Shown here one piece after another: positions 30,586 to 46,225 of a stretch of 64,000 bases of DNA (the first letter of the stretch is position 1; each line of letters begins with the position of its first letter). Origin of the DNA: Fluviicola sp. Lineage in GTDB: Bacteria; Bacteroidota; Bacteroidia; Flavobacteriales_D; Crocinitomicaceae. The DNA is taken from NCBI GenBank assembly GCA_002734065.2, contig NVXU02000015.1, positions 1 to 64,000 of the forward strand. Direction: 5' to 3'. A program made the position numbers and the translations under genes. The notes under the pieces are model-generated. The model was not told the DNA's origin. It made no database searches and was given only the letters and a program-made list of their open reading frames with translations.

Positions 30586-30933
30586 TTAATCTTCTGGTAA
30601 AATGTTCATTTTATCGGCAAAATGATGGCAATAATCACGTAAATCTTCACAAATATTACTTTCTCCCGTTGCTTTTTCAAAAGAATCAGAAAGCGTCAAT
30701 AAAGTCTGATGAAAAAACTGTTTCATCTCTTCAACCGACATGTCTTTGGTCCACAAATCAATTTTCATGGTGTTATTTGCTTTTGGATCCCAAAGAGAAA
30801 GAAGCATTGCTTTTGCGTTTGCATTCTCCACTCCGCCATCATCCGCGCTCCATTTCATCGCAATAGGCAAGTTGTTCTCGTTCAAACCTACGTTGATTTC
30901 TATTTTTGATGTCTTTGTTATTTTTTCTTCCAT
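30586..30933 (-). CDS. gldC: Gliding motility protein GldC
   Basis: Matches GldC family pattern; neighbour of gldB. Confidence 0.88.
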   Translation of the reverse strand: MEEKITKTSKIEINVGLNENNLPIAMKWSADDGGVENANAKAMLLSLWDPKANNTMKIDLWTKDMSVEEMKQFFHQTLLTLSDSFEKATGESNICEDLRDYCHHFADKMNILPED

Positions 30934-31010
30934 TTTTCAAGGATTCAATGTTTTAATGTTTTAATGATATAAGGTCTTAAGTAGATTCTTGTTATAATGA
31001 TTTAATGATT
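30930..31010. repeat. Imperfect direct repeat, left copy flanking the four-helix-bundle gene
   Basis: tttttcaaggattcaatgttttaatg...aagtagattcttgttataatga compared with 31455-31520. Confidence 0.75.
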
Positions 31011-31033
31011 GCAAAAATACGGGTTTAAATGAT

Positions 31034-31405
31034 TTATCTATTCTTTGCTACAACATTCTTTGCTTTGGTGGTTATTTTAGCTAATTCAGTCGCTTCTTTT
31101 GTTAGGCGTTCTAATTCTGCAAGATTATTAGATAGTTTGGTATCCTTTATCACTTCCAACCAATATTCAGATTCATCAACCTCTTCGACAACGATGCACA
31201 TCTTACTGAAAAACTCATTTCTTGACCTTGCTGTACAAGCAGAACGGTAATTTGCTCCTGTTGAGGTTGCTGACTTCACTAATTGATAGGTTATAACGGC
31301 AGATGCTTTGCTTGTTTTTAATGAATCACAGAATTTGATAGTGTCCACTGCAAACTTCTTTGTGCGTCTTTTCATATTCTCTATGAATAGATTTTTTTCA
31401 GTCAT
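31034..31405 (-). CDS. Four helix bundle protein (S23 / 23S rRNA intervening-sequence protein family)
   Basis: IENMKRRTKKFAVDTIKFCDSL..SKASAVITYQLVKSATSTGANYRSACTARSRNEFFSKMCIVVEEVDESEYWLEVI. Confidence 0.92.
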   Translation of the reverse strand: MTEKNLFIENMKRRTKKFAVDTIKFCDSLKTSKASAVITYQLVKSATSTGANYRSACTARSRNEFFSKMCIVVEEVDESEYWLEVIKDTKLSNNLAELERLTKEATELAKITTKAKNVVAKNR

Positions 31406-31454
31406 TTTAAATAGTGCTTTTTTGTTGCTCCATTCAAGTTAAGAAAAAATATGC

Positions 31455-31520
31455 AATTTTCAAGGGTTTAATGATTTAATGTTTTAATGTTGAAGTAAAC
31501 TCTTGTTAAAATAATTGAAA
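31455..31520. repeat. Imperfect direct repeat, right copy flanking the four-helix-bundle gene
   Basis: ttttcaagggtttaatgatttaatgttttaatgttgaagtaaactcttgttaaaataattga. Confidence 0.75.
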
Positions 31521-31552
31521 AGGGATTGAGAATATAAGGAGTTTAAAAAAAT

Positions 31553-31665
31553 CTAACCTACAATAAGCATCCATTAAATCATTAAAACATTGATTCCACT
31601 CTAACCTACAATGGGCATCCACTGAAACATTAGAACATTAGAACATTAAAACATTGAATCACTGC
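31553..31665. repeat. Internally duplicated, inverted members of the same repeat family
   Basis: ctaacctacaataagcatccattaaatcattaaaacattgatt / ctaacctacaatgggcatccactgaaacattagaacattag...acattgaatca. Confidence 0.8.
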
Positions 31666-31666
31666 C

Positions 31667-32677
31667 TCACTCCACCTCATACTCCGGCATAATCTCATTG
31701 TAACTAGCTTCTACCATCTCAGCTACAGAAACATCATTTTTCTTCATATACTGATGTATCATTCTCCAGCCTAAAAACTGTCCGTATCTATCCGGCGCTT
31801 CTTGGTTGGGTAATCCAGGAGTAAACGGCCCTTCTGAAATCATATTTCGCGTTGTCTGCTCACTCGTTTTGAACAATAACTTCTCATCCACTAAATATTT
31901 CCAGAAAGCTCCTTCGTTTTTTATTGCCCAATCATAATTTTCTTGAGAATAACGAAGAATAACACTCGATTCCATTTCTGGGAATGCAGCTTCTGTCAAA
32001 TATAAAATTTTGCCCCATCGAATCATGTTCTCGGCTAAATTTCCTTCTACTGGGTCAACGTAATGCGTCGCTATCCAACCAGTTAAAATGTCTCTTTCAT
32101 AATAGCGTTCATCCATCGCAATTTTCATCCAATCGTAATAATATTGAGGATTTAATTGCTTCACAACATCGGTTGTATCTCCCAAATACCACTCCATTCC
32201 GATTCCGATTTCGTTCTCCGTACAAAAAACGGCCGTGGTAAAAAGAGCGTTTAAATAAGCAATTGTTTGAGGTTGTTTTCCTTCAGGGAAATGGTATTTA
32301 AGATGTGAAAAACCATTGTTTATTGCTTTTTCTTTCTCTTGCAGAAAAGGAAACAAGGTCGCAATTCTTCTTTCTAAAGTCTGAATGGATGTGTCCGCTC
32401 TAAACATCTTGATACTGTTGTAGAATGCAGAGTCTTCAACAAGTCCAATTCTCAGTACATGACCAATCTCATAATCATAAATATCTTTCAACTCATTTTT
32501 ATAGAAATGATGCTTAGAAATAAGCTCAATTGAGTCAGAGCTATAGATGGTTTCGTCAACGTTTACAAAATTAATCTCCACTTGAGAGTTGCTTGCATCG
32601 ATTAACAATGGGTTCGTATCACAGCTGCTAATTGTAAATATTAGCAGAACAATTACAAATGAGAGTCTATAAGTCAT
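31667..32677 (-). CDS. gldB: Gliding motility lipoprotein GldB
   Basis: ISSCDTNPLLIDASNSQVEINFVNVDETIY...; GldB family pattern. Confidence 0.9.
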   Translation of the reverse strand: MTYRLSFVIVLLIFTISSCDTNPLLIDASNSQVEINFVNVDETIYSSDSIELISKHHFYKNELKDIYDYEIGHVLRIGLVEDSAFYNSIKMFRADTSIQTLERRIATLFPFLQEKEKAINNGFSHLKYHFPEGKQPQTIAYLNALFTTAVFCTENEIGIGMEWYLGDTTDVVKQLNPQYYYDWMKIAMDERYYERDILTGWIATHYVDPVEGNLAENMIRWGKILYLTEAAFPEMESSVILRYSQENYDWAIKNEGAFWKYLVDEKLLFKTSEQTTRNMISEGPFTPGLPNQEAPDRYGQFLGWRMIHQYMKKNDVSVAEMVEASYNEIMPEYEVE

Positions 32678-46020: not shown

Positions 46021-46225
46021 TTATCTCAATGTTTTAATGATTTAATATTTCAACAGGCTCAATACAAGTATTTCGACATGCTTCGACAGGCTCAGCAGAG
46101 TCAGCTCAATACAAGTGATTTAATGACTCAATGTTCTAAGTGAAACTTCGACATTACTACCCCTTATAGCAAGGAAAACCTACTATGAGCATTATTGAAA
46201 CATTAAATCATTGAAACATTAGCTC
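46021..46225. repeat. Cluster of dispersed repeats (TCGACA(A/T)GCTC(A/G) and ATTAAAACATTGAATCA-type words)
   Basis: tttcaacaggctcaatacaag, ttcgacaggctcagcagag, tgaaacattaaatcattgaaacatta. Confidence 0.8.

Follow-up and report, generated by a model that had tools for sequence, protein, structure and literature searches.

Why does a gene for an S23-family protein lie between gldC and gldB in this Fluviicola genome, and how did it come to be there? Structures of S23 proteins have been solved but no function is known, and the spread of their free-standing copies and of the intervening sequences (IVSs) of 23S rRNA is an old question. IVSs with an S23 ORF occur in the 23S rRNA of Coxiella and others, and have long been thought possibly mobile (PMC4990558). 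The locus lies within the window (the whole 64,000-nucleotide stretch of DNA analysed), and is laid out as follows:

30586..30933, minus strand: gldC, the host gene on one flank of the insert (PF19937)
30934..31666, no strand: the whole insert, 733 bp, from the gldC start codon to the gldB stop codon, absent in 16/16 same-genus genomes
31034..31405, minus strand: S23 / 23S_rRNA_IVP four-helix-bundle gene, 123 aa (PF05635, TIGR02436, AF2 model)
31667..32677, minus strand: gldB, the host gene on the other flank (PF25594)

In profile searches the S23 protein matches PF05635 (E=4e-12, 46.7 bits against a cut-off of 33.8) and TIGR02436 (E=2.9e-21, 75.7 bits against a cut-off of 24), and on these matches we regard its membership of the S23 / 23S_rRNA_IVP family as firm. 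The AlphaFold (AF2) model is a confident four-helix bundle (pLDDT 96.4) with the S23-family structure 2RLD as its best solved match and 2GSC also close (TM 0.73-0.80 for the 2GSC/2RLD-like bundle, normalised to the query), while the Avd structures 4DWL and 8UB7 rank lower. In all 16 same-genus genomes that have gldC, it abuts gldB with a spacing of -1 to about 10 bp, and neither an S23 gene nor octamers are found between the two genes in these 16 genomes, so the insert amounts to 733 bp including its repeat arrays; judged by its relatives, the cassette is an insertion. We group it with the S23/IVS elements. No recombinase or transposase is encoded within the 733 bp, where the only ORFs of at least 60 aa lying wholly inside are the S23 gene and one 73-aa ORF antisense to it.

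The repeats inside the insert are tandem octamers (TTTAATGW and variants thereof), accompanied by two short modules, M1 and M2:

30936..30975, plus strand: octamer array, 5 units (TTTAATGW)n
30978..30998, plus strand: module M2 (GAAGTNGACTCTTGTTANAAT), copy 1
30993..31008, plus strand: octamer array, 2 units
31467..31490, plus strand: octamer array, 3 perfect units
31492..31512, plus strand: module M2 (GAAGTNGACTCTTGTTANAAT), copy 2
31552..31570, minus strand: module M1 (ATGCCCATTGTAGGTTAGA), copy 1
31571..31594, minus strand: inverted octamer array, 3 units
31600..31618, minus strand: module M1 (ATGCCCATTGTAGGTTAGA), copy 2
31627..31658, minus strand: inverted octamer array, 4 units, outer partner of 30942-30975

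The outermost pair (30942-30975 with 31627-31660) is inverted and 88% complementary, and the inverted block contains two direct copies (31552-31591 and 31600-31639) that are 85% identical. The direct repeat, imperfect and some 62 bp long (30944-31005 aligned with 31459-31519), scores 35, compared with at most 26 in mononucleotide shuffles and at most 18 in random window pairs, and is composed of octamers plus module M2. The octamer pair TTTAATGWTTTAATG has 17 matches with up to two mismatches in the window (in shuffles 2.05 on average and at most 5). Matches to M2 adjoin a period-7/8 array in 25 of 44 cases in 1.2 Mb of this genome (background 2.1%), and 9 of 16 matches to M1 are no more than 100 nt away from an octamer pair, where zones of this kind make up 1.3% of the DNA searched, although both patterns were picked after being seen at these sites and the enrichments are therefore descriptive. 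The arrays that M2 adjoins differ in their unit, which would fit a core common to several array families. An initial annotation made from the sequence alone had described an inserted S23 cassette between gldB and gldC with flanking direct repeats and an inverted, internally duplicated block. The genes (matches to PF05635 and TIGR02436 for S23, PF19937 for gldC and PF25594 for gldB), the insertion (empty site in 16/16 genomes) and the inverted block all stand; the direct repeats are real as well, but tandem octamers make up most of the words they share, and the outermost pair is inverted, not direct.

Inverted arrays are not peculiar to this locus: in Bacteroidota, in cyanobacteria and in a third set of genomes, period-7/8 arrays in inverted orientation flank S23 genes. 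The Fluviicola genome has eight S23 loci, one of them split over two frames, and seven of the eight (all but L007) carry inverted short-period arrays, with a different unit at each. At L007 (G000:C62:141221-144505) the S23 gene lies between direct repeats that are longer (about 47-80 nt) and not between short inverted arrays, while the split gene (L006/L009, G000:C6:234130-234436) still has flanking arrays and looks decayed. At 64 loci from this genome, its relatives and Bacteroidota at large, we scored the upstream flank of each S23 gene against its own downstream flank in reverse complement, and obtained a median inversion score of 20, compared with 13 when the flank of another S23 gene was used, 12 for flanks 500-800 nt out at the same loci, and 14 for 295 comparison ORFs from own-genome loci, a set which includes a few S23 genes and is thus slightly conservative. 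Autocorrelation within the S23 flanks peaks at lags 7/14/21 and 8/16/24. The match between own flanks recurs at 14 S23 loci of two cyanobacterial genomes and at 28 loci of the third genome set, which was reached via the phylum of a MAG labelled Pseudomonadota (p<=5e-5 for both). These and the later p-values come from permutation of flanks among loci, with no phylogenetic model, and the flank window was 200, 250 or 300 nt wide depending on the step, with the same direction in all. Read by eye, the 12 cyanobacterial plasmid S23 loci all have arrays, most of them on both sides and the others on one. Chance and AT-rich composition as sources of the arrays were ruled out by the shuffle, random-pair, mismatched-flank and other-gene controls. 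Clear arrays are missing at some S23 genes, including L007 and many in Acidobacteria, and at a substantial share of S23 loci an array cannot be seen; in the A3 clade this applies to about half of the loci when the strict pattern is used.

A second empty site was found in Picosynechococcus: in PCC 7003 an S23 gene lies between inverted GGAGATAA-type arrays in the cas10-cmr3 spacer, and in PCC 7002, which is 90.5% identical to PCC 7003, this spacer is 12 bp long and free of arrays. A target-site duplication is not evident in this pair, and no clean one was found at gldB-gldC, where the relatives are too diverged for exact junctions. Among the cyanobacterial S23 genes, L154, L156 and L158 lie inside the cas6-cas4, cas10-cmr3 and nrdB-nrdA pairs, respectively. 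For the nrdB-S23-nrdA locus of Nostoc edaphicum, a search around the locus for near relatives matched only itself.

The sequence of the array unit follows the S23 clade. In single genomes with 15 and 14 S23 genes, the two flanks of each gene match each other and not the flanks of the other S23 genes (p<=5e-5 each). In the A3 clade, fetched from many phyla, tandem AGNAGNN is present upstream in 53% of loci in one orientation and in 1% in the other, and downstream in 38% versus 3%, while at Bacteroidota S23 loci of other clades it is found in 0-3%. This unit is kept in the A3 clade from cyanobacteria to planctomycetes, and an inversion score of 18 is reached by 41% of the A3 S23 genes, whereas only 5% of the remaining genes of these contigs reach it. 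The orientation of the arrays relative to the S23 gene is fixed on both sides. Locus pairs with an array similarity of at least 20 increase from 1-3% below 50% S23 identity to 32% above 80%. With regard to the window S23 protein, five homologues from other genomes of the phylum (L248-L252, 42-46% identical) have period-8 arrays with related octamers and the next homologues mostly have heptamers, while the very nearest one (L247) has a heptamer-like inverted match and not an octamer. When the period label is mapped onto a tree of 105 S23 proteins, 12 changes are needed, versus 17.8 for shuffled labels.

Our reading, to which we give a probability of a little under 0.6, is that the insert represents a small element, present here in one copy, in which an S23 gene lies between inverted arrays of its own 7-/8-nt repeat. 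Each S23 clade would be paired with one unit family, TTTAATGW being the unit in the window, and the S23 protein would recognise its cognate arrays as DNA or RNA. From the fixed orientation and the clade specificity we infer that S23 proteins recognise and bind these arrays, and that such binding may be what drives their spread. Arrays and S23 gene would enter a site together, mostly an intergenic one, and arrays lacking the gene would be dispersed as non-autonomous copies.

Gene-free arrays are indeed common. The window octamer has 60 matches over the genome, mostly away from S23 genes, versus four for the reversed control, and one further pair lies in the window itself:

46025..46220, no strand: solo octamer inverted pair without an S23 gene, in a 311-bp spacer

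In 11 same-genus genomes this spacer is 110-175 bp long and free of octamer arrays, so that it is at least 136 bp longer here. The sequence TTCGACAGGCTCAATACAAGTG is present beside octamer arrays at 46049-46070 of the window, L049:5978 and L060:13067, and is possibly another dispersed repeat. In an 800-kb sample of the genome, strict tandem arrays were found at period 7 (n=14) and period 8 (n=5), plus the harmonic 14, and none at periods 4-6, 9-13 or 15; several of these correspond to units that flank S23 genes of this genome. The unit of L004 has 55 matches versus two for its control and that of L005 14 versus three, while the units of L002 and L003 are dispersed no more than their reversed controls. 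With a looser threshold the sample contains 37 arrays, only three of which have an inverted partner nearby. The scarcity of such partners and the undispersed units of L002 and L003 weigh against our reading, as do the S23 genes lacking clear arrays and the lack of a clean target-site duplication and of a recombinase. The initial annotation had suggested a search for other S23 genes with the same flanks, and had taken repeats at unrelated sites without one as counting against its reading. Array flanks do recur at other S23 genes and the repeats are dispersed, but the S23 genes of this genome carry other units; and repeats do occur at S23-less sites, yet the solo arrays, as in the spacer at 46025-46220, look like part of the same system and are probably non-autonomous copies of the S23 cassette.

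The abundance of solo arrays would also be expected if the arrays were the target, arising and spreading by themselves, with S23 genes homing into pre-existing arrays matching their clade, as such target choice would also give clade-specific units. We consider this unlikely, although it is the strongest of the alternatives: the S23-less relatives have no arrays at gldB-gldC or cas10-cmr3, so that no array was waiting there in the genomes compared, and the two-sided arrays have a fixed orientation to the S23 gene. Next in rank, and also unlikely, is a regulatory role for S23, in which the arrays would be binding sites maintained by selection and would spread by ordinary recombination and gene transfer rather than driven by S23. 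This would fit the intergenic placement of the arrays (33/37 lie outside ORFs, although ORFs cover 88% of the sample), as well as the annotation of Geobacter heptamer pairs as putative global regulator sites (PMC2700814). The many private S23-unit pairs within one genome, however, look like elements and not like a conserved regulon, as do the patchy presence of S23 loci between relatives, the S23 copies with stops or frame breaks, and the placement of S23 genes in unrelated operons.

A small S23 element would still have to be inserted by some enzyme. As the insert carries no recombinase and no reverse transcriptase (PF00078, RVT_1) was matched in this 99.98% complete genome, strand transfer would need host enzymes; the only Y1_Tnp match in the genome is a single weak one on another contig than the insert. 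S23 might instead act like Avd of the diversity-generating retroelements, with a reverse transcriptase in trans and the hairpin of the cassette RNA being copied and inserted. Avd has the same fold, and some S23 proteins have distant sequence similarity to it: L001 and L156 score 30.7 and 36.8 bits with the Avd-specific profile NF033474, which is weak against its cut-off of 80, while the window protein has no match. The cassette RNA can also fold end to end, recalling the IVS stem (PMC4990558), albeit only moderately better than shuffles (z=-2.1). We consider this route improbable, since the element is present in a genome that differs from those with such retroelements in having no RVT_1 match, even though a reverse transcriptase could have been lost since. 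Movement of the cassette by a conventional transposase via the direct repeats, as the initial annotation read the locus, is very improbable: the direct repeat of about 62 bp is there, but it is itself made of octamers and M2, other S23 loci largely lack such repeats, and inverted arrays are the general rule.

Viewed as a small S23 element, the insert has features in common with several known systems. Like the IVSs of 23S rRNA it has an S23-family ORF between terminal inverted repeats, but it is located outside rRNA, between gldC and gldB, and it is bounded by tandem arrays of a 7/8-nt unit that is specific to the clade, with solo copies dispersed. In REPIN/RAYT systems, too, a small repeat flanks a gene in inverted copies and is dispersed without it, but here there is no Y1 transposase in the insert, and the repeats are tandem 7/8-mers and not palindromic REPs. 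An insertion sequence would have a transposase between its ends. MITEs are likewise short dispersed elements with inverted ends, whereas the array ends of the window element vary in length, and neither a parent transposase nor a clean target-site duplication was found.

Tandem heptamers dispersed in the genome are known from cyanobacteria as STRR, and a number of reports describe dispersed heptamer repeats but no protein that goes with them. The pairing of S23 clades with repeat units across phyla connects these repeats with S23 function and IVS spread, and the matched arrays, present in many bacterial phyla, suggest that a family of small elements able to spread has been overlooked. Tentatively, and at somewhat less than even odds, S23 proteins may pair with short tandem arrays in a sequence-specific manner and thereby provide the specificity of widespread, recombinase-less minimal mobile elements, with many bacterial heptamer and octamer repeats being solo copies and the 23S rRNA IVSs being members that landed in rRNA. 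If true, such elements would form a category of their own, one that is new, and several private S23-unit pairs inside one genome would constitute a natural recognition code. The two solved S23 relatives have five chains in each structure entry, and the arms of the arrays have medians of 5.3 and 5.4 units, although the score threshold itself favours 4-5 units; that five units per arm fit an S23 pentamer is only suggestive. One of these structures, 2GSC, is that of XCC0516, from a Xanthomonas species for which 186 GGGAATC arrays have been published. A link between S23 and GGGAATC arrays in Xanthomonas is a prediction; the best S23 matches in the 395-genome sample searched for it have at most 59% identity.

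In the open-access literature we found no paper linking S23 to period-7/8 arrays, although an earlier description elsewhere is possible, and a search of three published texts on heptamer repeats gave no mention of S23 or a four-helix bundle (PMC4679880, PMC4692102, PMC2700814). These describe dispersed tandem heptamers in Xanthomonas (GGGAATC), Nostoc (GGGGA(C/T)T), Beggiatoaceae (TAACTGA) and Geobacter (MTYCTGA), and those of Xanthomonas and Geobacter are often inverted pairs (PMC4692102, PMC4679880, PMC2700814). In Geobacter metallireducens there are five tandem MTYCTGA heptamers per element, in a hairpin layout (PMC2700814), and this unit matches that of the A3 S23 clade: in reverse complement MTYCTGA reads TCAGRAK, the A3 unit shifted in phase.
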